DNA from: Owenia fusiformis
Taxonomy: Eukaryota > Annelida > Polychaeta > Sabellida > Oweniidae
Length of the DNA: 64,000 nucleotides
Assembly (NCBI GenBank): GCA_903813345.2
Contig: CAIIXF020000010.1
Location: forward strand, 8,051,169 to 8,115,168
Direction: 5' to 3'
Shown: one piece after another, positions 1-57,074 of the stretch
Numbering within the stretch: the first letter of the stretch is position 1
How the letters are laid out: each line of letters opens with the position of its first letter
Notes under the pieces: generated by a model
Seen by the model: only the letters and a program-made list of their open reading frames with translations
The model's database searches: none
Told to the model about the DNA's origin: nothing
Translations under genes and position numbers: made by a program

Positions 1-1465
1 ACATATTATGCTTATTATAGCTAGTGTAAATGTTGAAATATTTGTGCACTTTGTGATAGAAGCATGAAATTTGGCACAAAGTTAGTTTATACCATTGTGA
101 ACTAGGCATCATCATATAAAATTTGAACCGAATCCGTTCACTGGTCTCTGAGTTATCAAAAATTACGTTTTTTTACGAATGTGGGCAGCCATCTTGAAAT
201 TCAGCCGCCATCTTGAAAATTATTTCTTGAACAGGGCTACTGTGTCCCTAGGCATAATCATATAAAATTTCAACCAAATCTGTTCACTGGTATTTGAGTT
301 ATCAAAGATTACGTTTTTTACGAAAGATTGCCGCCATTTTGAAATTAAGCGGCTATCTTGAAAATGTTTTGTCGAACATAGCTAGTCCCTAAGCATCATC
401 GTATAAAATTTGAACCAAATCCGTTCACTGGTATTTGAGTTATCAAAGATTACATATTTTTACGAAAAATGGCCGCCATTTTGAAATTAAGAGGCCATTT
501 TGAAAATCTCTTTTTGTGCGAAACTCCTTTGTCCCTAGGCATCAGCATATAAAATTTGAACCAAATCCGTTCACTGGTATATGAGTTATCAAAGATTACG
601 TTTTTTACGAATATGGGCCGCCATCTTGAAATTCAGCCACCATCTTGAAAATTATTTCTTGAACAGAGCTATTGTGTCCCTAGGCATAATCATATAAAAT
701 TTAAACCAAATCTGTTCACTGGTATTTGAGTTATCAAAGATTACGTTTTTTACGAAAAATTGCCGCCATTTTGAAATTAAGCGGCCATCTTAAAAATGTT
801 TTGTCGAACATAGCAACTGTGTCCCTAAGCATCATCATATAAAATTTGAACCAAATCCGTTCACTGGTATTTGAGTTATCAAAGATTACATATTTTTACG
901 AAAAATGGCCGCCATTTTAAAATTAAGTGGCCATCTTGAAAATCTCTTTTTGTGCGAAACTCCTTTGTCCCTAGGCATCAGCATATAAAATTTGAACCAA
1001 ATCTGTCAACTTGTATTTGAGTTATCAACGATTACATTTTTTACGAAAAATGGCTGCCATTTTGAATTGAGCGGCCATATTGAAAATTCCTTCTCGAGCA
1101 GAGGTCCTACACTCATAAAGCATAAGCCTATAAAATTTGAATCAAATCCGCGAAACTCCTTTGTCCCTAGGCATCAGCATATAAAATTTGAACCAAATCT
1201 GTCAACTTGTATTTGAGTTATCAACGATTACATTTTTTACGAAAAATGGCTGCCATTTTGAATTGAGCGGCCATATTGAAAATTCCTTCTCGAGCAGAGG
1301 TCCTACACTCATAAGGCATAAGCCTATAAAATTTGAATCAAATCCGTGAAACGGTATTTGAGTTATCGCCCGGACAAACAGACGGACGGACGGACCGACG
1401 GACGAACGGACGGACGGACGGACGGCTTTCCTATATCCCTCTCGAACTTCGTTCGGTGGGATAAT
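1..1465 (+). mobile_element. Pearl/Helentron-like repeat element with tandem core
   Basis: Monomers of about 145 bp (gagttatcaaagattacg..., AAAATGGCCGCCATTTTGAA) are repeated about nine times. They are followed by an (ACGG)n tract at 1372-1425 and the end motif CGAACTTCGTTCGGTGGGAT near 1445-1464. The left part is cut by the window edge. Two of the last monomers form a second, longer (about 195 bp) direct duplication (951-1148 and 1149-1347). The layout matches bivalve pearl elements and non-autonomous Helentrons. Confidence 0.75.
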
Positions 1466-3734
1466 AAAACCTTGTTTTTGTAAAATAATATTATAATAAA
1501 AATGACAGTAGCAATGGCTGATCTGTTGTATTATTTTGAGATTTAGAACATGACAATCACTAGCAAACTATGAAACTTACATAAAAATTCAGAACAAAAT
1601 CTTGACCAATCTGACCACTGGTATTAGAGTTATCAAGTGATAAGGTGTCGCATTTTGTGATTCGATGCATCCTTCCGATAAATATCTATCATTGGGTACT
1701 TTCTACACCATACTAAACTAAAATTCTTCCAAAATAGTATGAAGAAGAGTATTGTTTCAACATTTAACCAATAAAGCTTGGTTCTTGCCCATGTAAAGGT
1801 CATGAACTTTCTCGATCCTTTCTAACATTTCTCCTTAAATGATGATTATCATTAAATTAAAACCATAAAGTATATGTTAAAATCAATATCCAACAGTCTA
1901 TAGTGGAAATAATGAAAACTAGACAACTGCAACGCCAAAGCGAAGCAAATCCAATCGAACAGCAATGGCTGGTATTTTTACGACCGAAATGTATAGCAAA
2001 TATTGTAAAATAACATATTAAACTACATACAATGGGGGCTTTTCAACAGCTTTTTTATGGTTCTATAGACTCAAATTTCTTGCAAGAACCAACAATTTTT
2101 GCCTTGAATCCAATTACTCTGTATGGGGTAAAAGTAATGGCAAATGTAAACTTTGTAATTTGAATGTACATGAAGATTTATAGCATAGGTTATACATAAG
2201 AAAGGCCACCATTTTCAAAATGGTTGCTCAGTAGCCAAATTGTCATCATAAGTAATATGCTTTTAAGTAGGCACATATAAAATTTTTTAAAAAATCGCAC
2301 AGATGAACATGTAAATGTCAGCCATCTTTTAAATGGCCGCCTACTACCAAAATGTCATAAGACATTGTGCCATGCTTATGAGTATTCACATATCAAATCT
2401 GAACAAAATCGCTCTATTACTTTTTGGGTTATTATAGCAAAAAATGTAAAATAACTCACGTCAAAATGGCCAGCTACTCTCAAAAGTGTTATAAGACAAT
2501 GTGCCATGCCTACCTAAAACGGACGGATGGACAGAGGCGTGCCCTATATCCCTCCGAACTTTGTTCGATGGGATAATAGTCTGGGAAAGCAGTTCCTTTA
2601 ATTCGGGGGGCTCCTCTGGGGATTTCTTCAATATTTCTGAGTAAATTCATCACTCTGGTACTTAAGTTCATTTACTTAAGAGTAAAATGTTTCAATAAAA
2701 TTGTTCAATATTGTTTATTTAAATTCTTGGTTCATTTTAGTGATCTTTACCTTAAACTTTCCAATGACAATTCATATCATTATTGTAAAAATATGCTCTT
2801 ACTTCATTCTGATGTTGCAGGTCTGAGCCCAAAAATTGCCATAAATGAAATTTCCAGAATTTTTGACTTTTTCACATATGGGTGCTTATATGAAGGGGGT
2901 ATTTTAAATTTTCTAAGTGGTCAAGTGCTAATTACAGAGAATGTGGTCTGAACATTTCTTCTTAAGCAAACTCCTATATGTACACCTACACAATTTCGTT
3001 TGGTTGGATAATGTTTTTATGAAGTTGTTGGTGATAATTAATTAATACCAATATTGCAGGCAATGGGGGGTAAGGGTTCTTAAGCATAGAGAACTTTCAT
3101 CAGCTAATAAAGGATGTACTTTATTAGGTAAAATATAAGTACAAGGTGATCATTAAATTCTGGGAATTGGTCTGCCATTTCAAGATTTCTCAACCATTTG
3201 AGTTGACATTTTCAGCAGGTGTACATTATACATAAAAGAGGCTGAATTCATTTATCGAACCTAAACCAATCAAATTCTTAACACATCTCACTGCTGACTA
3301 CAATCACTTACATGATGGAACTTTACTTTCATAGAAATTACTTCTAGCTTAATGAATTGACCCATTAACTAAACTAAGTAATATGTACAATAAATATTAT
3401 CCCTTCTCATGAACATATATTTGAATATTGCAGTTATTACCAAAAGGCACTTTCATAATTATTACTATTGTCATTCAACTCGAAAGTAGTCAACAGGTCA
3501 TTCAACTATATATTGCATAATAAAACTTTCCACGGCACTTACCAACCTGATGTACCTTTACTTTCAGTTTTGAATAAGAGGCCCTGGGAGTTAAAAGTGC
3601 ATATAACACTTTTATTTGCACTTTAATTACCTTCCATTAAAGGATGCACTATAGTTGGTAACATATTTGCAAATACTCTACTCTGGAGATATCTTGTACT
3701 CAATGCTAGATATTAAGTTTTCTTGTTCACTTAC
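1466..3734. other. Intron 3' of exon 32, mostly no feature
   Basis: Apart from the degenerate element at 2196-2577, I see nothing coding here. Both strands were checked for a C1 zinc finger exon (His-Cys spacing) and none was found. Confidence 0.5.
2196..2577 (+). mobile_element. Degenerate third relative of the pearl-like element
   Basis: It contains AAATGGCCGCC-type cores at intervals, an ACGGACGGATGGAC remnant near 2519 and the end CTATATCCCTCCGAACTTTG with TTCGATGGGATAAT. The monomers are highly diverged. It seems an old copy of the family at 1-1465. Confidence 0.5.
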
Positions 3735-3983
3735 ATAGATTTGATCTTTTTTCTTCTTGTCCTTCTTCCATTGTTTAGCTTCATTTCTGGTCCTATTATC
3801 CTTCTTTAATTCCTTGAATTCCCTATTTTCTTTTTTTCTATTGAATTCATCAAGAAATCCCCTAAAGGCATTGATCCCCATGATTTCAAGTTCAGCGCTT
3901 GATCCTTCCTCTAACATCTTCGATCTCAAGCTGTTCTCAAAGCTGATCATCAGATCTCTGTAGTTTAAAGATTCATCAATTAC
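3735..3983 (-). CDS. MYO9: MYO9 exon 32: last exon in window, just before C1
   Basis: Residues 1677-1759: [20 protein letters not shown], then [15 protein letters not shown] and [11 protein letters not shown]. It aligns with IRYKDLYALFEQIL...VNTFKVFLDEYM...RKKRRKK of human MYO9A, which directly precedes the C1 domain. Donor TAT|GTAAGT in phase 0 shows that coding continues leftwards. Confidence 0.93.
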
Positions 3984-6900
3984 CTGGAAGACATCATATC
4001 GATTGAAAAACTTTGAGGAGATCAGAACTCTGGGATATGTACTACTACAACTAGATATTATGGGTAAATAAAATACTACTGTATAAGTGGTAATTTTGCC
4101 TAATCATTTAATTTCCCTATTCCCTAATTTTTTCCAGGTTCGGAAAATTAAATGTCGGAAATATTGTCTTTATAATGTTATCCAATGGGAGGTTTCTTGT
4201 CATTAGGAAAATTAAAATTAGGAAAATGATGATATTTGACCATTCGGAAAATTAACCACTCGGATTAAATACCACTTATACAGTATTCTGGGTAATTGTT
4301 AGGTCTTGATAATAGCATTTCTGGATGAGAATTCTTGGTTATTGCTGGCATTGATAGGATCTCTGGGAATCAAAACATGTAGCCAAGTAGCAAACTGTTC
4401 CATAATTCAACCAGTGGGTTTAAATTCTTTTAACAAACTCTAGGAATTATGCAGAGCAGAGCAGAACTAGGAGTACTGAGTAATTCATTTAAAAAAAGTT
4501 AGGGCTATGAATTCTGGAAAATTCTTTCAGAGAAAGTCCAGAATTCCAGGCAATACAATGTAACTTTCAGAAAAAGAGGTATGAATTCTGGGTAATGACC
4601 AACAGCGGACAGGGCTGGAATTCTGGATAATGACCATCAGGAAACAGAGCTAGGAATTCTGGATAATGACCTTCTGTGAACAGAGGTAGCCATTCTGGTG
4701 TATTACCTGCATAGCTATAGATGTCTTAGTTATAATTACACTCTGGATCTCTTTCAGAGTAGCCTTGAAGACTCTGTCAAATGCTGTGTCTTGTTTTCCC
4801 CCATCCTCTGAGAGACTCATACACTGGAATGAGAGAGATCACTTCAAAACACCATGCATGATGGTACCAATGAATACCTGTGGCACTTTCTCAAGATGAT
4901 ATTCAACTAGCCCAAGAAGAGCATCGTGGAATATCATTTGTGAAGGATGCACAGGTATTCATTCACCTTAATAGAATTTAATATTTGTATAATATTGTTC
5001 CCCAAATGTGTGCAATACAGTGTATACTATATTGTATATATAGTAAATTAACATGATTTGATTTCATATTCTACATGTACCAGGTCCAAGTATAATTAAA
5101 ATAAATCAGGCAATCTATATGGTAAATAAAGTTTTGGCGCGAAATTTGCCCTCCTTCGACGTCATCGGTTTCCACTGACCAATCAGTGTTACCATCAAAT
5201 GAGTACACCTTGGACTTTAAGGGGAAAGGTGAATAGCACTGTCCTTACCATCATCTCATACCTAAATGGATCAAACTTTGAATGGCCCTATTTATAATCC
5301 CCAACTCCCAAAACTAAATGCATTCTGTACATGTATATGGTAAGGCACTTAAAAATAGCTCACCTTTTGTGAAATAAATTTTTCGAGACACTTGAACTCT
5401 AGCACAGATGAGGCTAGTATAATTGTAGGATACTGCCATTGTGAGGTCCCAGCAACATTCCACTGAGACTCCTTAGGTTCTCTTTCACCCTATATAATAC
5501 ATGAAATAATATTAAGTTCAAAAATACATATTAAGTTCAACCCTATGTAATACATGAAATACATATTAAGTTCAAAAGTTCTCTTTCACCCTATGTAATG
5601 CATGAAATACATATTAAGTTCAAAAGTTCTCTTTCACCCTATGTAATACATGAAATACATATTAAGTCCAAAGGTTCTCTTTCACCCTATGTAATACATG
5701 AAATACATATTAAGTTCAAAAGTTCTCTTTCACCCTATGTAATACATGAAATACATATTAAGTTCAAAAGTTCTCTTTCAACTTAAATACATGAAATACA
5801 TATTAAGTCCAAAGGTTCTCTTTCACCCTATGTAATACATGAAATACATATTAAGTTCAAAAGTTCTCTTTCAACTTAAATACATGAAATACATATTAAG
5901 TCCAAAGGTTCTCTTTCACCCTATGTAATACATGAAATACATATTAAGTTCAAAAGTTCTCTTTCACCCTATGTAATGCATGAAATACATATTAAGTTCA
6001 ACCCTATGTAATACATGAAATACATATTAAGTTCAAAAGTTCTCTTTCACCCTATGTAATGCATGAAATACATATTAAGTCCAAAGGTTCTCTTTCACAC
6101 TATGTAATACATGGAATACATATTAAGATCAAAAGTTCTCTTTCACCCTATGTAATGCATGAAATACATATTAAGTTCAAAGGTTCTCTTTCACCCTATG
6201 TAATACATGAAATACATATTAAGTTCAAAAGTTCTCTTTCACCCTATGTAATGCATGAAATACATATTAAGTTCAAAAGTTCTCTTTCACCCTATGTAAT
6301 ACATGAAATACATATTAAGTTCAAAAGTTCTCTTTCACCCTGTGTAATACATGGAATACATATTAAGTTCAAAAGTTCTCTTTCAACTTAAATGAAACAC
6401 ATATGAAACACATATTAAGTTCTTAAGTTCTCTTTTCCCTTGTGTATGTACATAAAATACATACTAAGACCTTGGGTTCTCTTTCACCCTATAATAATGC
6501 ATGAAATTATTGGCATTCACAGCACATGTACATTCTACTATTTTCATACATTTTAATGGATTTAAGTCAGTTTTTAAGCTTGCATATAATCGAATTCAAA
6601 TCACTCAGTGCATTTCTCCTTGCATCAGATTCAATTTAAAACACTACTTTACTGTAATCAAATGATTACTGTTATTAGGTTAGATTTGACATCCTTGCTT
6701 CCTTTAATGAGGATTATCTCCCATCAAATTTTCAATTTTCATTGAGCTCATCAAAAGCTCCTCAAATGAGGTAATTTCATACAAAGGCACAGATGGTCAA
6801 ATAAACAATCACATTTCCTCATTAATTACCCTATAATGTGTCACAAAATAGAACAGTGCAAAATAGTCTGAAGATAACTTGATAAGGTTATGCATGGTTG

Positions 6901-9900
6901 GAAAATGTAACAATATCACAGATGCCGAATGCTAGCCCCAAACACCAGTCATAAAGACGTTGAAGGTTATAGCAATATGTCACTTCTGTTAAATGGAAAA
7001 TACAGGTGCCCATAATAATCAATACACAGTCCGATCTTTACCTTAAATTTCTTGCTGCCTTTTCTTCGATGTTTTGGTTTTTTCTCCAATTGGTCCTCAT
7101 CATTTCCTGCAGAACTCGTTGATCGTATATGGCTCATCTCTGCCGCCCAAGTCTCCTTCAGACGCTTTGGAGACATTTGTTCTTTCCTTCGATCAGCTGT
7201 TGGTGATGTAGGTTTGCTCAGAGATTTTGCTGGAAGCACTGGAACACCAACTGAAAAAATGCAGTACATGTATTACTGAAAATATCTCTTGAAATGGCAA
7301 TGATAAATGCAAAATATGGAGGCATATGGATTCCAAATGAAATTAAGATGTAACATAGGAGGAATTTTAATGTTGCTTTGGTCTCTAAGTGTTGTCCTGT
7401 TATATGTTCCATGATAACACTTGGTGTTGAAAATCCTTAAAATTACATGAAACCCTGTCAAAAAGTAGGTGTGAATCCTATGAAAATGATGAAAGTTGAG
7501 ATTTTGGATCTACAACACTTTTGAGAATAGCAAGACAAACACTCATGACAAAATTTCTTATGCTATCCACCTGTACACCAACTCATCCACACAGGTCCAG
7601 CTTTTGGCATGGGGGGTTCACTTTTCAAAAAAATCCAGGGGGTTCACATTTGACAACTTTGACCTAAATCACTTGAAAAGTGCTCAACATGGTGAATAGG
7701 CAATTAGAAAAGCATGATTTTTAAAGAATTTTTTAGGCAAAAGGGAGGTGGGCAAGAACTGTTCGAAGCCCCCTAAATACAAGCCCGCCCATAGGCCCAC
7801 ATATCCATCAGCACAACAAGAAAAATAACAGCATGTTCAGTGTTGTTCACGTGCAATAATAAAAAAAACATGGGAAATCACTGGATTGTACAAATAAATT
7901 GCACTTACTGGATTTGCCAAGAATGCTGGCTGAGGTGTTTGTGTTGCTGGTTTCTTCAGTATCAGACTCATCACTTTGTTCATAAATATCCTTCTTTGAT
8001 TTCTTTCCTGTAAATTATATAAGGATAATTTAGCGAATGAATTATTGAACATTAAACCAAATTTCAAAAATACTGCATGTTACCAATGTTCTTTAAGATT
8101 ATTTTCTGTACGCTTTTGAGTATTCACTCTAAAATTTTTAGACAAACAAACCCTACTACACAATTGCTTATTGGATTGATTTGTTTTTAAAAATCTATGA
8201 ATATTGTCAAAATTATATGATTTCTATTTGAGCTGTAATAATAGCATTTATAATCATTAACATGAAACTTGATTCACCAGAGGATTTGTAAATACAATAT
8301 AAACAGAGAATAAGATTCAATCAGTACAAATTCCAAACGTCATGCTGCTCTAAAATATCAGCAAATCATGCTTAAAATCTATTCCTGAAAACATTTTTTT
8401 AATATCACTGTATCAATGACGCACAAATAAGAGCTAATTGAAGTAAAAGTAAATTAAAACATTAACTCAATACAAACATGTAAGATTCAACACAATCATA
8501 AATAATTACAGTTTTAATATGTAATAATTGCACAAACATTCTGCATGATCAAACTGCAGCTTCTGTAACCAGGGGTTTTCTTAAATCAAACTACTACTTT
8601 TTGATTTCTTACCAAGGGTTCTTCTTAAATCACACCCCTTCTTTTTGATATGTACTGGTACATGTATATCTTTAGCAAATTCAAATTAATTGCACCAATA
8701 ACAAACCATTCAGTGCTTTCACATCAAAATGGGGAAATCAAAATCGCATCATGTATCTGCTACTCAAGACTCAGTTGTTAGTGTCAGTCCATGCATATAG
8801 GTGTCACTTACTGACACTGGCCCATGGCCTATGCATGACATCTTTAAGGGAGCCATAATTGCTGATTTTGATAAGCTCTGATTTGGGTCTACTAGGTAGA
8901 GAAGAATGTTTGGTAGAATCCTCCATGTTATAATTTCCTTGAAACATGGAGCCAATCTTTTCTAAAACAAAATTGCAAAAATAGAAACTAGCAAAGGAAT
9001 CCTGTGCCACACTGCTCGCCTGCTCAAGCATTTCGCCAGGATACAATACTCACCTAGAATATCAGTAAGATATCCAGTCATGTATCAATATAAAATTTAG
9101 TTACTTGCTAAAATTGTTTGTAAGAGGAAAGTATCGCTGCTCGTATCAAAATTCAAATTTTGTATCCTGATACCTCTTATAGAAATACCACCGAAAAAGT
9201 AATAAACTCCGCATGACACACATTACGAGACAAATACTGCCTGATCATTTATATTTTTCATTAGCTCTAACGTCTGTATTTTCAGGCCTCCATTTGATCA
9301 CTAACAGTCAAAATATACATATAAAATAGGCTTATTTTACTGACCTCCCATGAAGTTTTTGATGTGTTTCTTAGCCCGACGGAAGGGGCTCCGAGAGCTG
9401 GCAGGGGCTGCAGATCCGTCTTCTTCTACCTCTAGTTTATCTCTGCGACGGTTCACCATTTTCTCAATTTCTTTAAGTTTATCAGGAGTAAGAGCCCCCT
9501 GGCGAGTAAATGATGAATTGAGTTCATTGTCTTCCGTGTACTGTAAAATAAAAGTAATGTAAAAAATGATGTATTAAATAGTCATAAAGTATTGCCATAA
9601 ATCATTTCTTAAATGACTTGCTAAGATTCTTCGAGGAAGAGCAATTAAAAATTAGTTTACTAAGGGTAATAATGCATAGTACAAACATGTGTCAAATTCA
9701 TTATACAATACACAAATGGTTTAGAAATATTCAACTTGACAACACTAAGCAGGACAACACATACAATAAAGGTGGTCCAGTAGAGTTAAAGACAAAACCA
9801 CAGAAAAAATAGTTACTAAATGAATGATAAACCACTTTGAGTTGAGACATTGCTTGTGGCTGTGTGTTTAGCTTTACAGAAAAGGGTCGGATGTTTTGTG

Positions 9901-12900: not shown

Positions 12901-15900
12901 TATCGCAGCAAAAATGACAAATTAATTGAGGAACATATAAATTGTACATACTCTTCAGAGTCATACAAGTGGGATTTTGGGTGATCATAATCCAGTTCTT
13001 CAGTACTACTCGAATCTTTATTTGTTAATATGCCCTCATCACTTGTTGAAAGGTTAAGAATATCATTAAGTTCTTTCTGGCGTTGAGCTTTGGCAAGTTC
13101 TTCCTGTTTCTTTTGTTCTTCCAGTTTTTTCTTAATCTCAGCCTCACGTAGTTCTTTAAGTCGACGCTCCTCGATCATCTTACGCATATGCTCAGCTTGG
13201 AGTTGCCGTTCCTTTTCTTCCTCTTCAGCTAAGAGCCGAAGTCTTCTCTCCTCAAGCAGGGACTGGTATCTAAAACCATGAACTCATGTGAGAGAAATAT
13301 CTTGTGGTCATGTTTAAAAAATGAGAGTGTAAAACAGAGAAATCTGACAGAAATAAAGGAAACAGGCAAGTAGTCATCAATCTGAGCAGATGTCTAATGT
13401 GACCCTTGGAAATAGAAACAGCCCAACTATGCAACCATTTGTACATAAACACAAGAAATGAGCCTCTTCACTCAAACTATAGAAAGAGTATGGATGAAAA
13501 GCATGAACGAAATATTTTAGAAGATACTGCATGATGAACATGAATTTAAAACTGTAATATGTACAGGATATTGAGCATCACAGCCTTTCGTTGGACAGGA
13601 TTGTATGTAAAATACAAACATCTTTAAAGTGTAACTGGAATGTGTTCAGGAACATAGCAATTGTTAATTCTTTTGGAAATGGGTTTTCCCATATTTATTA
13701 TGGTTATGAACCATCTTTTGTTTGTACCTTTTTTGAGCTAGGTAGAATCGTATCGCACTCTGTATTTGAACTGCAGCCTGGACTTTCTCCCGGAATGCCT
13801 TCCGCACTTTATAACCTTTATAGTACTTTTGAATCAACATTGCAGCATATATACCAAGCCTTATACGCCTCCTTGCGATGTAACTTCGCACAACAGCCTG
13901 GAAACATCAGAATAAAAGAGAAGTGATTTTCTCATTTTATAGTTTGTATGATGTGTTTTTATTGTTATTCCTTGTTCTTTTCCACCTCACCTGGTTCCAT
14001 ATGATATGAATATGATGCGTGTTGGTTGAAAGTAGAGCTTGTAACCCCCTGTAACCTTTTATTTGGGAAAGCTACATATATTTCAGATTCACTTCTAATG
14101 TAAGACATTGCACATTGATTTAAACAAGTTTCATATGACAAAAGAGAAAAGCAATTCATATGCTGTATTGGTAATACATTTGAGATGGTGTTTAACTGTC
14201 AACATTTGTGGAGAATGGAGTAAATTAGGTTGCGAAATATGTGAAATTCACAATTTACAGTAATTTATAAGTTCATTTCTCCACAACAGTAGACACCATC
14301 CCTAAGTATCTAAAAAGCATTCACATCAATACAGAAGACTTACTTGTATCTTGATTACAGAACTCCTCATCTTAATATATCTCTGTCTCTCTTGTTTAGC
14401 CCGAACCAAGCGTTGTATCTTGATGATGCATGCCATGATGGCCTGGTGGAGCATGTCGTCTAACCTCAACTTCTCAGTTTCTCGCAGAAACACCTTTAAG
14501 AGTTTTACCTTTCTTTATAATCATGCATTGTCAAAATCAAACACAAGCAAATATTATTGAATAATGCAAGTATTTATTTTTTATTCAACAGGAAACAATG
14601 CTTTTCTATCACTAGCAATGTACACAGTGTGACAATATAATTAACACCCAAAGGCCCAGTTATTTTCAATTTTGGCCAGCTATTTGCTTCAGCACAACTG
14701 ATAATTTGTCATTTCTTTAATATTATGGCATAATCAATTGAAATAATTTAATAAAAAATACAAAATATATGTATTGGAAAATAATTTTAAAAACTGGTTG
14801 GTAATTCAATTTTTAGAGGTTCAAGTACAGTTAACCCTGTCTTAGTGAACACCTCTCTCTAGTAAACACATGTGTTTAGTAAACACCACTTCAATACACA
14901 TTTTATATTAACTCCTGTACTAAATCCAGTCTCTGTAGTGAACACTTACCCACAGTGAATACTTTTTTTGGCTCCATAGGTGTTGACTTTATACAGGTTT
15001 TACTGTACATACATACAACACACTTGTGGTATATCTTACCTTAGTCTTGCCAATCTGGTAATTGTCTTTGTTCAGACCAAGAGAATTCAGAAACTTTGTG
15101 ACATCTTCCCGAGAGCTTAATAGACCATTAGGCAGCAAGATCTTGTAGTTGAAGATGAACTCCTGAAATAGTTATATTAGTGCATTTAATACTACACATT
15201 CATAATTGTACATGTATATGCATTATATATCACTCGCTGTGACCATAATTCATACATGACCGTGCTAGATCAGAATTCCTCATCCAATCAGAATGCAGCA
15301 TAGCCGTTCTCTAATTCTCAATAGATGAGTGACAATTTATCGTGCAATCTGCATCCGGGAATCTATGTATCGTGTTGTATTGTTACGTCACACCTGGGAA
15401 TGACGACAATATCAGCAAGGTTGTTATTTCATGGACCTCAATCGCCAATTAACAGTATATTCTAGTGATAATTTTTAGGACAAGTTTATAATATCAGTTC
15501 TGCATACTGGGTCCAAGATACATTACCAGTTTTAAATTCAAAAATCAAGACAATTGATAAATATGGCTGTTGATGAGGAAAATGACTGCCTCTTAGATCA
15601 TCCAGCTTGTCCTAATCAGATCTTGAGATAAGTCTTTTTTGTCAATTATACCATATCACTTATAATGGTACAAATTCAAATCAGGCTGAATTGTTATTTG
15701 TTATCTTCATACCAAGATGATTTGACCCCTCCCCCACATGTCCATCAGAACCTGATATAAACAATTTCATGTGCAATAATAAAATAATAGTGGAAGCCTT
15801 TTTTATCGTGGATTAATAAAAATGACAACATCCATACAATCGCACCTTGTAAATATGGGACATAGATGGTGATAGGTTAAGATGTCGCCTAGCATATTGG

Positions 15901-18900
15901 GTTACCCAGCAGAGACAAAAGAAGCATACCTCAAATGTAAGTCTGTAGTTATAGCCTGACTGTCTAATCATGACTGTAGCCAGCATGCCAGTGTAACGTA
16001 ACTGCCGCAAAACTGTCTCATCATCAAACCTACACGGAGCCTAAAATATATATCAGGAAATATGAAGAAAGACTGTGTGTGGGATGTGATTGCATAGAAG
16101 CCTCATAGGGATCTCATTAAAAGAATGAATAAGGGAATGAGTAAATGCTAATAAAGGCTGACTAACCAACTTAATCACACATGTTAATAAATGTGAAATT
16201 TTACAATTAAATTCTTGATTCATTACAATACAAACCAATTCCATGACATATGCTAACTCCCCTTATTTGGAGTGATTGGCAAGTCTAAAATCATCCGGAT
16301 AAAAATAATGAGCTGATCCAAGTAAAGATCCCCAAATAATAAAGGGGAGTAAGCATATGTCATGGAATAGGTTGGATTGCATGTAATCTTAAATACCCTA
16401 TACTTAAGTTGTTTCTACTTTGTAATTTGTACATGCTCCCACTCGTGTTTTTTCATGATAACAAATATTTGTTTTTATAAGAAACTTATTAAGATACTTA
16501 TTTTAATTCTCAGCAGGAGATTAATTAAGCATCAAAATTCAAGACAAGTAAAAGTACATACATGTATAGTACATTTACTAAAAAAACATATTTCACACAG
16601 ATTTAAGTGAGTTACCAAAGGGATATCCTGATACATAAACTCTGACATAAAGCAAAAATGAATGGAATCATTGGAGAAACGTTTATAAAATTGCTCAAAA
16701 CAATATTGGCAATTTACGTAATTATGAACATGTAGAAGAACAAAAATGAAATAATATGTCTTATAGGGTAAATACTTTACTCACCTTGTCTGCGTTAGAC
16801 TTGATACAGCGGATGAAATATGGATTCCCTTTGTCTAATGTCTCCATCAATTTTGACAAAGAATGCTAGAAAATTAATAATATTTTTTTTATTCAAGGCG
16901 ATGCAACAGAAACTAATCAAATTTTGGCAAAATCAGAAAATATGAAAGGCTATAAGCTATGGTTTAGAAGACTCAAGTGAATAAAATCTATACATATATG
17001 ACTGGAAAACATACTAATTTTGGTTTAAAATCTAAATTATTGCAAAATCATAGTTGGACTTATTGAATGACTTGTAAAACATGGTCACATTGATGTTTAG
17101 ATCTTTTGGATCTAATATCTTACCTGGAATTGGGCGCTAACACTTGGCATCTTTTTACTGGATGACCTCCGACTAATTGCACCTTTCCCCTGCATTGCAC
17201 GCATAGACTTCAGGTCCCGGAACCCCTAAACATGTGAAAACACTTATAAGCCACACGGTGAACAGAATCGCACCCTTGAACAAGATACACTTTTCGGGAT
17301 GGAAAATCCAAAATGGCCAACTTAACATTTACCCAGAATGCCAAAAACTAATGAGTTATAAACTTTCATAGGTAGAAACATCCCTGAAAATTTCAAATGA
17401 ATCTCTTAAACGGTTTGGCGGGAAACCGTAGACAAGCCTTCACAGACACGATTTTAGGACGAAAAATCCAAAATGGCCGCCTTAACATTTACCCAGAATG
17501 CCGAAAAACTAATCAGTTCTAAACTTTATAGGTAGAAACATCCCTGAAAATTTCAAATGAATTCCTCAAACGATTTGGCTGGAAACCGTAGACAAGCCTT
17601 GACAGACAAGATTTTAGGAGGGAAAGTCCAAAATGGCCGCCTTAACATTTACCCAGAATGCCGAAAAACTAATCATTTCTTAACTTTCATAGGTAGAAAC
17701 ATCCCTGAGAATTTCAAATGAATCCCTCAAACGGTTTGGCTGGAAACCTGTAGGCAAGCCTTGACAGACAAGATTTTAGGACGGAAAATCCAAAATGGCC
17801 GCCTTAACATTTACCCAGAATGCCGAAAAACTAATCAGTTCTAAACTTTCATAGGTAGAAACATCCCTGAGAAATTCAAATGAATCCCTCAAATGGTTTG
17901 GCTGGAAACCTGTAGACAAGCCTTGACAGACAAGATTTTAGGATGGAAAATCCAAAATGGCCGCCTTAACATTTACCCAGAATGCCGAAATACTAATCAT
18001 TTCTAAACTTTCATAGGTAGAAACATCCCTGAGAATTTCAAATGAATCCCTCAAACGGTTTGGCTGGAAACCTGTAGACAAGATTATTCGGGACGCCTGC
18101 CCAACCGCCCGCCCGGCAAACTGATTACAATATAGCACCTAAGGGTGCGATAAAAATATGATTAGATACCAAGAGTACAGGGAAACAAGACACATGCTTT
18201 TAATTTCAAATTTGACACACAACAGTTTCCCTACGATTGAACCAGAATATCACTCTTTCTTTTTATTAAATAATCATAACTTATCTTCACATATAAAGGC
18301 ACTGCAGCACTGTCTTAATCGGTATCCTCTATTCTAACAATGGTTGTTTTTGAATAACAAACTGTGTTTAAAATTCCAACATATAACATTAATTGAACTT
18401 CAAAATGTATTAAATGTACATGATCTGCAAGAGAATAATTTGACTCAGTGAATTTTATAAACAATGACGGTATAAACTAACCCTACTATCACACCAAACT
18501 AGTTCTCACTATGTTCTCGAAAACGGGCTTCAACTGTTTACCAACGGACTGGACGTACTTAAAACCATTTGGGGTCTATTTACAAACTTCATCGAACATA
18601 CTCGAACGGGTAGGTCCTCTAAAACTTAGAACTTGCTCAAATGTCCTCTTGGTCATCACGTTCTACAATTAGAACAAGTGACAACCTACTAACGACGAGC
18701 TGGACGTACTACAAATGGAATCGTAGTACTTCAATCCTACTATGGACAGTTTAACAACGAGTTGAACTGTCTGGGGACATATTGAGAACGAGGTAGAACT
18801 AATTGCAAACAGGTTAAAACTGATTAAGAATGTATTTATCAATGAGTTAGCAAAAATATAGCTATCACACCAAGCAAGTTGCCACTGGTTTTAAACTGTG

Positions 18901-24900: not shown

Positions 24901-27900
24901 GCCTTGCCCCAAGTCGGTCTCTTTTACTTATCTTGATTTCTATTATGACCGCCTTGTACCAAAGAGAAAGCCACGTGCTTTACCGACAGTTTGTTTATGT
25001 CGGTGATTTTGACCAATAGCACGCGATCTTTCAATGTCTAAATTTAGGTTACAAACACACGAGGTAATACAGTTGTTGATTTTGCTCCAATCAGCGAGTT
25101 AGTATCGGAACCTTTGATAGTGGCATTGTGGGAAGTCCTACCTCGCTTTACTTTCATCAGCTAGCAAAAATGAAAATGACCCTCACAAAATCGATAAACA
25201 TTTTATTTGCTAAATAGAATTGAAAGTAATTTGAATGTAGTGGACCGATTTAATATCAGAAAGTTGATGACTGATCAGTTCACATATAAACACTTATAGT
25301 TATGCTGTTAAAAGGATAATGAAAAGTTGGGAAAATCCTTTTTTAATTGATTTTCCTGTTTATAAACATACCCACCTCTCAATTATATGCCTTAGATTCC
25401 TTAAGCAATCTCTGTATGGAGTCCTAACACCCCTCTGGTTTTACTGATGACATTAACTTGGACGCGTCCACTATTGAATAAAGTAGTTTGTACACGTGCC
25501 AACGTCCTCAATTTCCCTATTCCCCCTAATGAATAGTGGGGAGGTCGGGTGGGACTTTGGTAATTGAGAGGTGGGTATGTTTATAAACAGGAAAATCAAT
25601 TAAAAAAGGATTTTCCCAGTATTATTACACATCCCACCTCTCAATTATATGCCTGAATGTAGCCGAAAAGGAGGTGGGTGAATTCAGTTAAACCAGAGGG
25701 ACCCACAAACCAACAAGTAGAACATTCTAAATAATTTACATTATAAAATCATAAGAATGTTTAATGATGATGACTCACCACAAGGCTGTTGAAGATGCTA
25801 TATGTTGTATAGTGAGCCTGCAACCATCATAGGGCCTAATTTCCGCAGTTCTCCCTCGATCACTGATGTATCTCGTAGGTAGAAGCTGGTAAATGTGTTG
25901 TGATTTGCCCATGAGCAGGCTTTGAGAACTGCAGTAACTGACAGATTTGCTTGAACAGCAAGGCTTGCAGATAAGGCCCTGGTTTCGTGGGTTTTAATAG
26001 AGTTGATTTGGTAATCTGTTTCTTGTGAATTTTTGTAAGTATACAAGATCAGATTTTTCACCCAAGAAGATATAGTGTTTACGTGTATATCTCCAGTATA
26101 TCCGGCTTTGTATGGTATAAACAGTCTATTTCGGTTGCCCCTTGTTGAGACTGTGGCTTGAAGGTAGTAACGTAGAGCTCTGAGGGGGCAAAGTGTCCTG
26201 TCTGGAGAGTCTCTATTCACCAGTGTGGTGAGAGCTTTAATGAGGATTGGTTGAAAGCGAGATTCTCCTTCTGCAGCTGATAGTGACTTTGGTAGAAATC
26301 CTATGAAGGGATACATAGTTACTTGGTCCCTGGATTCTTACCATTTTAAACGTCTGAAGTCGAGTGCATGTATATCACTTCTTCTCTTCCCTGAAGCCAT
26401 GAGTAAAAGAAAGAGTGTTTTCCATGATGTGAATTTAAGTTCCGCTGTGGCCATAGGTTCGAAGGGTGCTTTGGATAAAGCATTAAGAACAAATACAAGA
26501 TTCCATTTAGGTACCATGTTCCTTGGTGTCAGGTTTTCCAGTTTAAAAGATCTGATAAGATCGCCTATGAGGGAATTATCAGTCAAGTCAATATCAGATG
26601 ATTTTTTCAGTACTGTATTATTGGCAGTTCTGTATCCTTCAATGGTAGGAATTGAAAGTTTCTTAGTCTGGTGAAGATATAGTAGAAACTCTGCCACTAG
26701 AGGAATATCTGCTTGGCATGGATCTGAATTCCGTTCATAACACCAAACAGTGAAGGTGTTCCACCTGGAATCATAGAGTTTATTTGTGGATTTCCTCCTT
26801 GATGATTCTGAGATTCGAAGAGACACTTCTGTAGAAAAGCCTTGTTTTTTGAGGGTGTCGTTGACAATTTGCAGGCGTGAAGGGCAAATATTTCCGGAGT
26901 CTGGTGAAACATGCTTGTCTTTGGCATTTTTAGTAGTTTTTGAGACACTGGAAGCGTTCTTGGGTAGTCCGTTAGAAGTTCCAGAATTTGCGTGAACCAA
27001 GGTTGATTTGGCCATTTTGGAGCTATCATTATGGCTTCGCAATTGTGTGTTCTCATTTTTGTTAGAACTTTGTCGATCATGCTTGTTGGTGGGAATATGT
27101 AGAAGTTGAGATTGTCCCACGGGATTGACATTGTGTCTGTTCCCCAGCTGTTTTGGTCTGGTACTGGGGATACATATAGTGGTAGTTTGTTGTTGTGACA
27201 TGTCGCCATCAAATCTAACTGAGGAGTCTCCCATATTTGCCACAGTCGTTTCACTATTTGTGGGAGTAGAGACCATTCTGTGTTCACTATCCAGTCCCGT
27301 CTGCCCGTCGGTTTAGGGATCCTGCTATATGTTGAGCTCTTATGTTTATTTGGTGGTTTTTGCACCAGATTAGGATTTCCTGGCTTAGGGTCAGAAGACT
27401 TTTCGATTTTGTCCCGCCTTGTTTGTTTATGTAGCTTAGGGCTGTTGTGTTGTCCAGGCAAACTAGAATGTTTGCTTGAGGTACCAGTAGATGATTCAGT
27501 TTGTGTAGAACTTTCAATACTGCCGCTAGTTCTAGCCAGTTGATGTGGTTTCTCATTTCTGATGGGGACCAGAATCCATTGATTTCCACAGAGTCCATGT
27601 GTGCACCCCACATAGTCTCCGATGCATCCGTGAAGATTGTGTGATCTGGAACAAACATTCCCAGAGGTTGACCCATGAGTAGATTCTGCTCGTCCATCCA
27701 CCATTTCAGTGTGTTTATTACTTCTTGGTTGATGTAGATTGGTGTCTCTAGTGATTTTGTAGGAGACATCTGGCTGGCTAGGCACTGTTGAATTGGTCTC
27801 ATGTATAGTCTGCCCCAGGGTATATTTTTCTCTGCTGAGGCTAGTAGGCCTAGTAGTTTCATCCACTGCCTTGTTGGTTGAGAAAGGGTATTGGTGAATA

Positions 27901-30900
27901 ATTGTGCGATTTCTAAGATTTTTGGATCCTGTCTTGCGGAGGATATGTTAGGCCTAGTATTAGGTTGTATTGGGTGCCTATGTACTTGAAAATCTGTGTT
28001 GGGATCAGTTCGGATTTTTCTCTGTTGATCACAAAACCGAGTTTTTCCGTCACTGATAGTACTGTTTGTGTCCATATTTGGCACTGTTGTGCAGATGGGG
28101 CTCGTATTAGCCAATCGTCGAGATATTGGTGTGTTAATATCCCTTGGAAGTGTAGGAAGGCACCGATTGCTAATGTCACTCTTGTGAAAACATAAGGGCT
28201 GGTTGACATTCCGAATGGAAGTGTTTTGAATTGGTATACTTTGTTGTTGATCACGAAGCGAAGAAACTTCCTGAATGGTTTGGCTATCGGTATATGGTAG
28301 TAAGCATCCCGATAATCGATGGATGTGGCCCATTCGCCCTTTTGTAGAGAGTTTGATATTTTGGCTGAAGTTTCCATTTTGAACTTTGGGCATATTATGT
28401 GTTTGTTGAGGAGAGACAGGTCTATTATGGGTCTGTAATCTCCGTTTGGCTTTTGGCGTAAGAATATGATGCTGTAGTGGCCCGGTGTGTTGTAGTCTGT
28501 TTCCTCCACAGCTTGTTTTTGAATTAGGAGATCTACTATGTTTTGAAGCAGTAGAGCTTTTGTTTTTGATGCCGATTCGAAGTTGTTGAAGTTTTTTGTC
28601 AAAGGTGGATTGTTCACTAGTTGTGGCATGTAGCCATGTTTTATCACATTTAAAATCCATTTGTCCTTTGTGATGAGTTCCCATTTTTTTAAGTGTAGTT
28701 GAATCCTGCCTCCCACTGGTCCCAGCTGGGACATAGGTGAGAACGGGGGGAGGCGGGGCTGGGACATTGATGTTATTGAAGTGTCATTTACGCTTCTTAA
28801 AGCCTGATTTGTTGTTATTGTTGTTGGATTTTGTAGAAGTAGAACGGTCAGAGAAGTTTCCTCTGTTGTTGTTTCTGTTGTTGTTTCTGTTGTTGTTGTT
28901 GTTGTTGAAGTTGTTCCTGTTAAAGTTGGAATGTTGATTACTACTTCTGTTGGAGTTGTTATTACTGGATTTATCATAATTCTGTTTTCGATTTTTCCAG
29001 TTTGAAGCTAAATCTTGTAGCGCTTTTGAGGTTTTAGATTTATCCGATCCTTCACAGATATTTTTTAAATCCTCTTCAGGAAATAAAAATTTGGTGTCGA
29101 TGGGGAGATTCCTAAGGGCTTCAGCGTCTGACTTCCTGAACTTGGAGCTTACCCTGTCCCTTTGAGTCAGTATGACGTTTGTGACATTTGAAATGGTGTC
29201 CCTTGTAGCTTTATTTACCATAGTTGAAGCTGTTGTAATAAGATTGACGAGATCCTCATTTTCAGGGAAATTCTCTGCAATGATTTTCCCTGTTGTCCCT
29301 AGAATCCATTCAGTGTGAGACAGATGACGAAGAGGAGCTCTCGCTGATTCTTCCAACAGTTTGTGATGTTTGGCTGGAAGCTGGTAAGAAGTTGAAGCCA
29401 AATCTGATAGTTTCATGGAATGTGGAATAAGTTCCTTAGTTGTCCCATTCAAAATGGATTTTTTATAGAAGTGTTCATCTTCTTTGAGGGACGTGAACGA
29501 TCGTTTTGGTCTTAACAGGAAGTTAGTGTCATTCATGTTTTTCTTGTTGGCTAATTCCTGGTTAATGTTGGCGAAATTCTGTAGCACTGAAGGCCCGATC
29601 GGTAAGCCTTTTGTTGTGTCTGAAGAAGTAGATTTCTTACCCAAAGTTTGAAGTCCTAGCGGTCTATTTTCCGTTTGTGTTTCTGTGTTATAGTCTGTAG
29701 TTGTTTTAAAATGACTCGGAAAGGCATTTTTAATTAGTTTAACACAGTTCTTCCAACAAATTAAGTCATGATCGTTGTCGGAATTGGAAGAATCCGAGTC
29801 TTCCGGGTTATTGCTGTCACGGCGCATGTGCGCAGGAGAGGTCACGGGCGAGTCCAGTTCGCTGTAGGGATGATCACTTCTTGCCCGTTTGGGGCTAGAT
29901 GCCCGGTCCGGGAAACATACTGTAGACTAGACGGCGAAACAGTTCGCTTTTTCGCTCTTTGTACCTCCCTTCTTTTAGCGGACCTGCTTCTGTTGGTTGT
30001 TTCACCTAGAAGTTCAACGTCAAGTTGTTTGTTTGCTACGAGCAATTCAAGAGTTGGAGTCAGTCCTTTGATAATATCTTGGACCATATCTGGCGATATA
30101 CTTGAGGCTAGCCCTGGTTGTTGATTTTGATAGGTCCGCAGTTCGGAGTGTTGTTGTTGTTGAGATTTTGAAAACCTCTTAGATGGTAAAGTGTTTGTTG
30201 CTCTGAATCCTATTGAATTCAGACTATTAGACTGTATGAAGTCTCTCCCTGTTGTAGGGTGGTGATGTTGAAAGTTGGATGTGTCCTGCACCTCAGTCCC
30301 GGGTAGGGAGGTGAGCCCAGAATCACGAGTATCCAAAGTAGGGTTGAAATTTGACTGGCAAGTCAAGTCCTTCCCTTGTGAGTTCATATCATGCCCCTCA
30401 TTTCCTGGTGGAATGAGCCCACGATTCATGAAGTCACTGTTGATGTTGTTGTCAATGTCTATGCCGCTGGTGATGGTGTGGGATGGCATGCTACCCGGAG
30501 TTGGATTTTCCTCGCCAGAGAAAATGTTCCCTTGCAGCAAATTTGAACTATCCCTTTGAAGTTGACTTGAAAAGTCAGGAATTTGTCCATCTTCCAGTTG
30601 TTCATTGACATTGTAGTTCATTGTTGAATTAAGGTTGATATCCTTTACAACTGACGACTTGTTGTTCTCCATATAAAATTTTTGTTTCAAACAAAAACGG
30701 CGTGTTGATTGCACTAATGTATGGGGAAATTGAGGACGTTGGCACGTGTACAAACTACTTTATTCAATAGTGGACGCGTCCAAGTTAATGTCATCAGTAA
30801 AACCAGAGGGGTGTTAGGACTCCATACAGAGATTGCTAAAGGAGAAGCCTGGATTTGCAGACTGCAAGCATGCCGCATATAACTTCACAACCGCATGGCG

Positions 30901-33900: not shown

Positions 33901-36900
33901 GGTCTCATCCTTCACACGCAGTAAGTTGGAGATTATCGTCACCAGGTACATGTTTTTAATCTCAACAGACTCATGGTGGGCAGACCGTTCAGATTTCTGA
34001 AATTATTCCACATTTGAGGGCTCTATCTCTTAGATAACTTACATTTCTATAATGCAATTTGCAACATCAACAGACTTTGATATAAAGCTTTTTTGCATGA
34101 AAATACAAAAGTTTGAACAAAACTGGTCACCTGGTACCAAGAATTTCCAAACAGCAAACTCAATCTTATATGACCAATTTTTTCAAGCTCTAGCATTTGA
34201 AAAAAGAAGGTTTATGGCCAAGTCAATTGATAGTACATGTTACAGATTTATTATAATTTGTTAACAGAACCCGAGCTCATTTCATTTGACTAACTGGCTT
34301 TACCTTAAGACAGCAGGTTCGTTTTTCATAGGGAAACTCATGAGTTGATAATGTTTATTGGATGTAGGTTAGGGAGAGAGGGGGGGGGGGGGCTACATGG
34401 TTATAAACATAGGTTCAAATGACAATAAGTTCTAACAATAAGTTCTACGTTAACTTCAGACCTTTAAATAATCATTGAATCAATTCATTTTATTATACAG
34501 CCAGGTTGCTGAATGGTGAAAGCTTTTAATTTATCCTTACATTTACTGATGTTGTTCAATGATACCTCAGGAAGGATGGACCACTTATAATTTCACACTT
34601 TCACAATTTTACCTTTTTGTACTCCACATTGCCTAGATGCAACACAGCAGCCAACACCGCAAACAGTCGTCTCTGTATATCTGTGGAGAAGCCGACCATC
34701 TCCATAGATTGCTTCAGACGTGCAAACTCATGAGCTTCATCCATGTTTTCTCCATCAATGTTCTCAAGCGTGTAACAATCATTCTGCAATATCAAAATCA
34801 CTCAATCTAACTTTCTTATTAATTAGAAAACATAATATCGACTACAAATTAGTTGTTAGAAGATAAATAATTAAGTACAATAAATCATAATTCATTAACT
34901 AGAAAAACAGCAACTTCACGGAGTAGCAAATCCCACCGAACAAAACATGTTTTGGTAAATAGCGGCCATATAAAATTTGAGCCAAATCCATCCACTGGTA
35001 TTTGAATTATCAAAGATTGTGTTTTCATGAAACATGGTTGCCATTTTGAAATTCAGCTGTCATCTTTAGATTTCTTCTTTAGCAGAGCTCCTATGTGCCA
35101 AGGCATCAGCATATACAATTTAATCCAAATCCATCAACTGGTACTTGAGTTATCAAAGGTTATATTTTTTTAGGAAAAATGGCGCCCATTTTGAAATTTA
35201 GCTGCCATCTTGAAAATCCCTTCTCGAACAGAGCTCCTATGTCCCTAAGCATCAGCATGTAAAATTTGAACCAAATCCATTTATTGGTATTTGAGTTATC
35301 AAAGATAACATTTTTTTACGAAAAATGGCTGCCATTTTGAAATATGGTGGCCATCTTGAAAATGTCTTCTTGACCAAGAACCTTTGTACCTAGGCAACAG
35401 CATATAAAATTTGATCCAAATCCATTCAATGGTACTTGAGTTATCAAAAATAACAGTTTTTTACGAAAAATGGCCACCATTTTGAAATATGGTGGCCATC
35501 TTGAAAATGTCTTCTTCAGAAAGGCTCCTTTGTGCCTGGGGAACAGCAAATAAAATTTGAACCAAAACCATCCACTAGTATTTGAGTAATCAAAGATTAT
35601 CTTTTTTATGAAAAATGGCCGCCATTTTGAATTTAGCGGCCATATTGAAAATTCCTTCTCGAGCAGAGGTCCTACACCCATAAGGCACAAGCCTATAAAA
35701 TTTGAATGAAATCCGTCAACTGGTACTTGAGTTATTGCCCGGACACACGAACGGACGAAAGGAGGGACGAACGGACGGCTTTTCTATATCCCCCTCGAAC
35801 TTCGTTCGGTGGGATAATTAGGCTGAATCCATTCATCAATGGGTCTTTAACAGAAAATTATGTTCAATTAAGTTAAGATTTCCTCAGAACATTGCACTTC
35901 CTACGAAGTAAATAACGCCTGGTAGATACATTTAATGGACTGGCTTATGCTTAATTTAAATCCTTACGGGACAAATGAATGTATATTAAAAGATGTATGC
36001 TATGTTTAAAACTATTTGCCAAGTATCCAACTCATTTCGTTTTTATTCAGAATATATGGCTGAATGGCTAGGAAGGAAAAGGGACTTTGTGCCAAGTCTA
36101 TTCTAAAACATTCTACATGAAGAGAATTATTTTCAGACAAAATCAAAAATAAATAAAAATTTGGATTAAAAGTTCAAGTGAACATATTGTTGTATGGTTG
36201 TATGTGGATCTTCCACCAATAAACCCACAGCCTGTTTTGTGGGAAATGCCCTTACCTGGTTCAGATAGTGATAATCCTCAGGTTTAGTAAGTGACAGAGT
36301 TTCTTTCTCACTCTCGGAGGCCCCAGCCAGAAGATAGTAAAACACATGGTAGTTTCTATGAAAATAAAACACAAATTAATTGACACAAAAATCCTGGAAG
36401 AAGCTTTGCCTTATGAAATCTTAATGAAGTCATCCTTCTTTTTACCCATTTTTTAAATTAATTATCCAAAATATGCACTTTGTCTATTATGAAAGGATTG
36501 TTGCCTTTAACATTTGACGAAAAATATGAATAACAGTGATTGACAGTGGCTTCTTTATATAAATCAATAGCAACAATTAACAATTAATATCGAATCTGTC
36601 AATTGATTCTTATATACTGTAAATATATTACTATAGTATTGTTTCCTATGTTTGTAATCCTTTTTTACATGCTACAATTGCTACATGCATATATTTAGTA
36701 AGGGTTCAACATTATAAGTTTACAATATACAAGAAGGTGTCATATGAATATTTTACTTTTACCTTTCATCCTTGGCCTGTGAGACAATTCGTGACTTCTC
36801 CAGGAGATATTGGTCAACAATAGCTCTGCAAATACAAAAGCATAAATCATATACATCTGTTAAAAAGGTGAACAGATTATCTGTGGATTCTATCAATGTT

Positions 36901-56970: not shown

Positions 56971-57074
56971 GGTGATTGAGTATTGGAATCAAATTCCAAG
57001 TATGGAGATGTTTTGTTCACATCATGAATATGTTACTATAGTTTCATTTCCATTATTGCGTCCCATTTCTGCAT
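56971..57074 (-). other. MYO9: 5' UTR part of the first coding exon, start context
   Basis: The ATG at 56970 lies in ATCACCATGGCA, a strong animal start context (A at -3, G at +4). An in-frame TGA lies 24 bases upstream, so the start is well fixed. A possible acceptor (TTTTATAG) ends at 57075, which would make this a UTR segment joined to an upstream non-coding exon. No such exon or promoter could be recognised in 57075-64000. Confidence 0.6.

Follow-up and report, generated by a model that had tools for sequence, protein, structure and literature searches.

The Host Gene and Exons 29 to 31

The 64,000-nucleotide stretch of the Owenia fusiformis genome analysed here (hereafter, the window) harbors, on its minus strand, exons encoding an RA domain, a myosin head and an IQ motif; exons encoding a RhoGAP domain are located just past the window, on the strand of the host gene (C10:8050226-8050360, 8048174-8048293 and 8046593-8046757). 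An RA domain, a myosin head, an IQ motif and a RhoGAP domain together characterise class IX myosins and, all four having been found, the host gene appears to belong to this class. The order and the strand of the exons from RA to RhoGAP suggest that they belong to one transcript. The features of the host gene to which the analysis refers are the following:

56053-56988, minus strand: N-terminal exon, with the RA domain (Pfam PF00788) and the start of the myosin head (PF00063)
13664-13906, minus strand: IQ-motif exon (PF00612)
7042-7250, minus strand: predicted exon 29, starting at an acceptor that scores 5.38 and followed, immediately past 7042, by the donor GTAAAG (phase 0)
5364-5489, minus strand: predicted exon 30, encoding 42 amino acids in 126 nt, with its two ends in phase 0 (from open frame and phase)
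5358-5363, minus strand: exon 30 donor, GTGAGC
3984-3985, minus strand: acceptor AG (score 10.52) of predicted exon 31, which starts at 3983 in phase 0

The introns on the two sides of exon 30, as delimited by the predicted exons, measure about 1.55 kb (intron 29) and 1.38 kb (intron 30). Exon 30 is itself a predicted exon, the prediction resting on its open frame, its phase and a good-looking donor; since both of its ends are in phase 0, it would be skippable without any change of frame. Of 1863 stop-free stretches, 19% match or exceed the codon score of exon 30 (0.25); compared with those of 50 training exons, this score lies below 86% of them, the other 14% scoring no higher. No Pfam family was found for exons 29 to 31, and their structure matches were insignificant (best E value 0.67). 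Acceptors were scored with a model built on 59 sites of myosin exons of the same genome (median score 10.2, 10th percentile 6.5); the training sites were drawn from 74 domain matches (71 with a candidate site and three without), 12 of the 71 being dropped for a score of 3 or less, and because the model chose its own training sites in this way its scores are biased upward. On this scale, the exon 30 acceptor scores 3.67, that is, under the 10th percentile of the training sites.

Elsewhere in the window, long overlapping reading frames are located at 25798-30759 (minus strand); they are seemingly intronic and by eye retroelement-like, with reverse-transcriptase-like and recombinase-like stretches. 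Two near-identical inverted reading frames (60462-60674, minus strand, and 61936-62148, plus strand) lie about 1.3 kb apart and are perhaps the arms of a transposon.

A Minisatellite Carrying Copies of the Exon 30 Acceptor

Directly 5' of predicted exon 30 lies a minisatellite array, whose 48-bp unit holds the predicted exon 30 acceptor together with the first ~13 bases of the exon. Its parts are listed below:

5490-6507, minus strand: minisatellite with a 48-bp unit and 21 AG-bearing acceptor copies (from TRF, unit map and module search)
6442-6490, minus strand: most distal copy, which still resembles exon 30 past the first 13 nt (from alignment tests)
5971-6005, minus strand: 35-bp truncated unit, which has lost most of its exon part
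5492-5544, minus strand: last 53-nt stretch before the true acceptor, starting with the second truncated unit
5490-5491, minus strand: AG of the true, i.e., exon-proximal, acceptor

The TRF call covers 5477-6507, with a period of 48, 21.6 copies and 84% matches. A relaxed search disclosed 22 modules ending in AG, namely 21 upstream copies and the true site; 19 of the 21 copies retain the start of the exon, and two are truncated. When divided at the start of the exon, the units have the form AGGGTGAAAGAGAAC..TTAATATGTATTTCATGTATTACAT and vary in length (49, 52, 48, 45 and 35 bp, with a final stretch of 53 nt). The exact 16-mer TAGGGTGAAAGAGAAC occurs 14 times in the 498-Mb genome, always within the array, the true site included, and the same pattern read backwards occurs 0 times. 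In a genome search that skipped very common words, all the matches of a 96-nt dimer of the unit (10/10) likewise fell inside the array. Since the 16-mer and the dimer are confined to the array and the backwards pattern is absent, the array is far beyond chance: it is confirmed as real, and its locus is present in a single copy in the one assembly searched.

The initial annotation had described tandem acceptor copies 5' of the real exon 30 acceptor, which TRF and the 16-mer search of the genome bear out, and a unit spanning this acceptor and the start of the exon, which is supported as well, the acceptor itself being predicted. The exon 29 donor that it had placed after 7042 agrees with the sequence, the junctions between exons 29 and 30 and between exons 30 and 31 both being in phase 0. 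Its estimate of about 15 copies has to be raised to about 21 upstream copies; the unit length of 48 bp stands as the TRF period but not for the individual units, which range from 35 to 52 bp and are joined by the 53-nt stretch; and the span that it had assigned to the array (5364-6510) does contain it, but takes in exon 30 itself.

Other arrays are present in the window (102-1103, 34967-35735, 61223-61512 and 17297-18082), with units of 145 and 162 bp rich in AAATGGCCGCCATTTTGAA-like words; these words are also present at the loci L019 and L032.

Phase, Stops and Strength of the Copies

Each copy had also been regarded as a potential decoy acceptor, in the same phase as the real one. The phase does not hold, since only 2 of the 21 copies are separated from the true exon 30 start by a distance divisible by three. 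Moreover, when entered from exon 29 in phase 0, every copy (21/21) reaches a stop within 22 codons, so that the use of any of them would truncate the protein; decoys that keep the phase are thus ruled out. As for their strength, 20 of the 21 copies score below the true acceptor (-3.77 to 3.16 versus 3.67), and a single one, at 6386, is slightly above it (3.87). Both the stops and the scores therefore speak against copies usable as decoys.

Other Boundary Arrays in the Genome

The sample used for the rest of the genome consisted of 20 stretches of 10 kb round myosin-head matches, 74 of the 92 matches being inside these stretches and used; the loci were chosen for their myosin matches and are no random sample of the genome. 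In these 20 stretches, the window and L019, for a total of 274 kb, TRF disclosed 56 minisatellites (unit of 10-200 bp, at least 2.5 copies). Arrays of splice sites were found at several loci, as an example at L026:

L026, 4721-6116 (and 6282-6774): acceptor array of 32-bp units, 44 copies by TRF, plus a later array

By the count of modules, this array holds 43 copies, 42 of them with AG. Their median score is 9.69 versus 10.72 for the true site; 40 of the 42 score at least 6.5, six are at least as strong as the true acceptor, and all 42 run to a stop within 41 codons. The whole of the exon at L026, from the first to the last residue, aligns to myosin XV, and such deep conservation argues that the exon preceded the array. 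A second array (26 bp, 18.9 copies) begins a few bases past the donor of the same exon.

Shorter series of acceptors are located at two other loci. L039 harbors a 61-bp unit with four upstream copies (scores 6.7-12.0; true site 11.8). In L036, a 91-bp unit is found in 11 upstream copies (11.5-12.1; true site 12.1) and a 260-bp unit in three (4.0-6.4; true site 4.0); the exon beside the 91-bp array itself matched no family or structure and sits between two myosin-head matches of the same gene. Donors are affected too. At L028 (6813-7934), the 125-bp unit is the 3' part of a myosin exon with its donor GTAAGT, and nine GATAAA/GTAAGT sites, identical over 15 bases, follow one another, the true donor being the first and the eight downstream ones being decoys; this exon was matched to myosin Ic, with a Pfam score (23.4) under the curated cut-off. 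At L035, a 34-bp unit gives four sites, i.e., the true donor and three copies, and the case is borderline because only about 4 exon bases are common to the sites. When the reading frame is used to identify it, the true site closes the acceptor arrays and opens the donor arrays, which is the arrangement that removal of the array together with the intron requires.

Two further arrangements were observed in the sample. At L025, minisatellites (2574-4197 and 4524-4922) closely flank both sides of a conserved myosin exon (about 4276-4500). At L020-L021 (C9:37986009-37994334), one myosin-head exon (profile positions about 18-84) is present in twelve tandem copies, perhaps mutually exclusive exons; exons of this kind exist in the muscle myosin of the fly.

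Origin and Growth of the Array

The growth of the array from the exon 30 boundary is the better reading, and it is supported by the most distal copy, which was tested as the edge of the array. Past the shared 13 nt, this copy reads CCAAGGTCTTAGT against CTAAGGAGTCTCAGT in exon 30, an extra similarity whose p value is 0.0043 (alignments anchored on the shared nucleotides, against 20,000 random positions, uncorrected); unanchored tests of the same copy were weaker (p = 0.011 semi-global, 0.066 local), and in the other 18 copies tested the similarity to the exon past the shared 13 nt had p values of 0.10-0.68. The two copies at the edges terminate in ATTAT(T)ATAG, and 15 of the 20 inner copies in ATTACATAG. 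The sequences thus support the view that the edge copies are nearer to the ancestral boundary than the homogenised inner ones.

Within the array, exact runs of 152 nt at a lag of 93 and of 98-99 nt at lags of 275, 234 and 461 were disclosed; long exact runs at multi-unit lags show that blocks of several units have been copied. Slippage from the exon boundary had been put forward as the way in which the array grew: the boundary is retained here as the probable point of departure, but, judging from these runs, simple slippage by one unit at a time does not fully account for the growth of the array.

The starting event would have been a duplication of ~23 nt of intron and ~25 nt of exon across the junction between intron 29 and exon 30, 13 exon nucleotides of which are still plainly shared; amplification and homogenisation inside the array, with copying of multi-unit blocks, would have followed. 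The whole array would leave the transcript as part of intron 29 and is most likely passive. We therefore regard it as quite probable that the exon 30 array is a passive minisatellite, derived from a tandem duplication that spanned the boundary and removed with intron 29.

The opposite course, in which an independent intronic minisatellite existed first, with exon 30 either taking over the last AG of this repeat as its acceptor or being no exon at all, appears unlikely. The weakness of the true acceptor (3.67), an indecisive codon score (0.25) and the fact that exons 29 to 31 are without protein-family or significant solved-structure matches would all agree with it, as would the symmetry (0,0) of exon 30, owing to which exons 29 and 31 could also be joined in frame. 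It is at odds with the extra exon similarity of the distal copy and, by analogy, with the array of L026, where the exon would have come before the repeats.

Are Exon Boundaries Targeted?

The frequency with which boundaries fall into local repeats was assessed with 28-mers centred on each boundary, a copy of which was sought within 3 kb. A local copy was found for 14 of 119 boundaries versus 365 of 3000 random positions, and for 6 of 74 mid-exon positions. Eight of the 14 positive boundaries are the exon duplicates of L021; without this locus, the boundaries with a copy are 6 of 98 (acceptors 3/48, donors 3/50) versus 207 of 2000 random positions. These counts are subject to some peculiarities of the test: at L039, L036 and L035 the script took an array copy or another AG for the true boundary; the donor used for L025 (4673) is probably incorrect, the frame indicating one close to the start of the array; the L029 donor entered the test unchecked; and the 91-bp array of L036 and that of L028 are invisible to it because their exons are outside the 74 domain matches.

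Boundaries are hence found in repeats at or below the background rate, and a duplication process directed at boundaries is not supported. As there is no enrichment over random positions, the general birth of minisatellites suffices as a source, and the presence of further arrays in the same genome points to a high general rate of minisatellite formation as the cause, with nothing special to exon 30.

Passive Array or Functional Decoys?

It might be supposed that the copies compete for the spliceosome and, through RNA decay, tune the inclusion of exon 30 and the dose of the myosin, in which case the length of the allele would matter. Most units do contain an AG and a possible branch-point-like TTAAT (seen by eye and unscored), all 21 copies lead to stops, and elsewhere in the genome the copies are about equal to the true site in strength. 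The copies of the exon 30 array itself are, however, weak, the units of the different arrays (32, 61, 91, 125, 260, 34 and 48 bp) have no bias toward multiples of three, and the comparable lancelet arrays, known as mirages, are reported in passages of PMC3087553 and PMC3902484 not to disturb regular splicing. A regulatory role of this kind is therefore quite improbable.

Even less credit can be given to the idea that neighbouring units pair in the RNA and hide the copies, so that only the last acceptor stays open. The RNA of the array (300 nt) folds better than dinucleotide shuffles (z -3.5 for the exon 30 array and -4.1 for L026), and the true exon 30 site is the most accessible of the 22 (0.50 versus 0.28-0.46). 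Nevertheless, with the fairer control, in which shuffled units were arranged in tandem, the excess is not significant, as 14, 30 and 51 of 200 reach the folding of the myosin IX, L026 and L035 units, respectively, and the true site of L026 is no more open than its copies (0.39 versus a mean of 0.41); the hiding of copies by RNA structure is thus not supported. Finally, an origin of the unit from a dispersed satellite or transposable element inserted beside the exon is practically ruled out, even though other arrays of the window share similar 145-bp units at several places, by the 16-mer and the 96-nt dimer being found nowhere else in the genome (very common words being skipped in the dimer search).

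If the array is passive, as we prefer to think, the true site would probably be found in spite of the copies by exon definition, in which the spliceosome matches the donor of exon 30 to whichever acceptor lies closest on the other side of the exon; this mode is expected here because both predicted flanking introns exceed 1.3 kb. The true site would be favoured further by nearly all of the array copies being weaker, and any RNA in which a copy was now and then used would acquire a stop codon and undergo decay. Proximity across the exon and decay of mis-spliced RNA may therefore be the means by which the gene copes with its array. In the passages of PMC9225289 on which we draw, exon definition favours the sites closest across the exon; the human 3' site data given there show no more than a weakening of the upstream preference when exons are defined, and the paper thus backs the proximity rule in part. 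It also recalls the classical result that the upstream one of two competing 3' sites is chosen, a choice that would oppose the true exon 30 site if introns, and not exons, were the unit of recognition.

Relation to Known Systems and Significance

Lancelet mirages are minisatellites of intron/exon boundaries (PMC3087553, PMC3902484); genes harboring them also include PGBD5 and troponin C (PMC3902484), and the two papers, in the portions used here, describe them as polymorphic in length, also somatically, with regular mRNA splicing undisturbed. Instability of array length is reported for lancelet Adh3. The structure of the exon 30 array, exon 30 being predicted, matches that of a mirage: tandem units span the intron/exon boundary, the AG is kept in 21 upstream copies, and the inner units are homogenised and the edge units divergent. 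According to the same portions, lancelet mirages likewise consist of boundary-spanning tandem units with AG or GT kept in many copies, hit both acceptors and donors, have a homogenised interior with divergent edges, and have units of 10-160 bp, a range that includes the 48 bp of the exon 30 array. They differ in their host, which in the present case is an annelid, the exon 30 array being known from one genome assembly, and in their size, the lancelet BflGb6 having 6 and 3 copies in its two haplotypes, versus about 21 copies here and 43 at L026. As regards the host, the genome searched has three matches to Eryth_link_C, a linker domain of annelids, and, in a search run with no positive control, none to the GFP family; forkhead matches fall on nine of its contigs C1-C12, compared with nine of 12 chromosomes in Owenia fusiformis, although the numbers of the contigs differ.

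Two other systems are related in part. Internal tandem repeats of human segmental duplications (PMC2812944) are also minisatellites, with units averaging 30 bp, that involve exon-intron boundaries and can alter splicing; in contrast to the present array, they were found via recent paralogues, are reported to form novel introns or alternative splicing and, in the passages available of that paper, are not described as a series of copies of a single acceptor preceding the true site. The gain of introns by tandem genomic duplication, as outlined in part of PMC4974935, similarly has duplication as the source of new splice signals, but there the duplication is tied to a gained intron, whereas no new intron is evident at exon 30. 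No earlier report of boundary minisatellites in annelids came up in searches of an open-licence library.

Taken alone, the exon 30 locus is a modest finding; several arrays in one genome, some of them with tens of sites of normal strength, are worth noting. A broader proposal, namely that boundary minisatellites occur genome-wide in Owenia fusiformis, have arisen independently of those of lancelets, and that proximity to the donor decides the choice of the 3' site in vivo, is advanced as a tentative one, which we hold to be conceivable and somewhat more doubtful than not. If it were true, constitutive exons would withstand the presence of as many as about 42 acceptors upstream, the majority of normal strength, and the 3' splice site would be set by proximity to the downstream donor, and not by acceptor strength or first-come scanning. 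With an annelid as host, mirages would no longer be a peculiarity of lancelets. A single genome in which identical or near-identical splice sites are repeated 3 to 42 times beside conserved exons provides a set of natural experiments, and these arrays offer natural tests of how cells choose the correct splice site.
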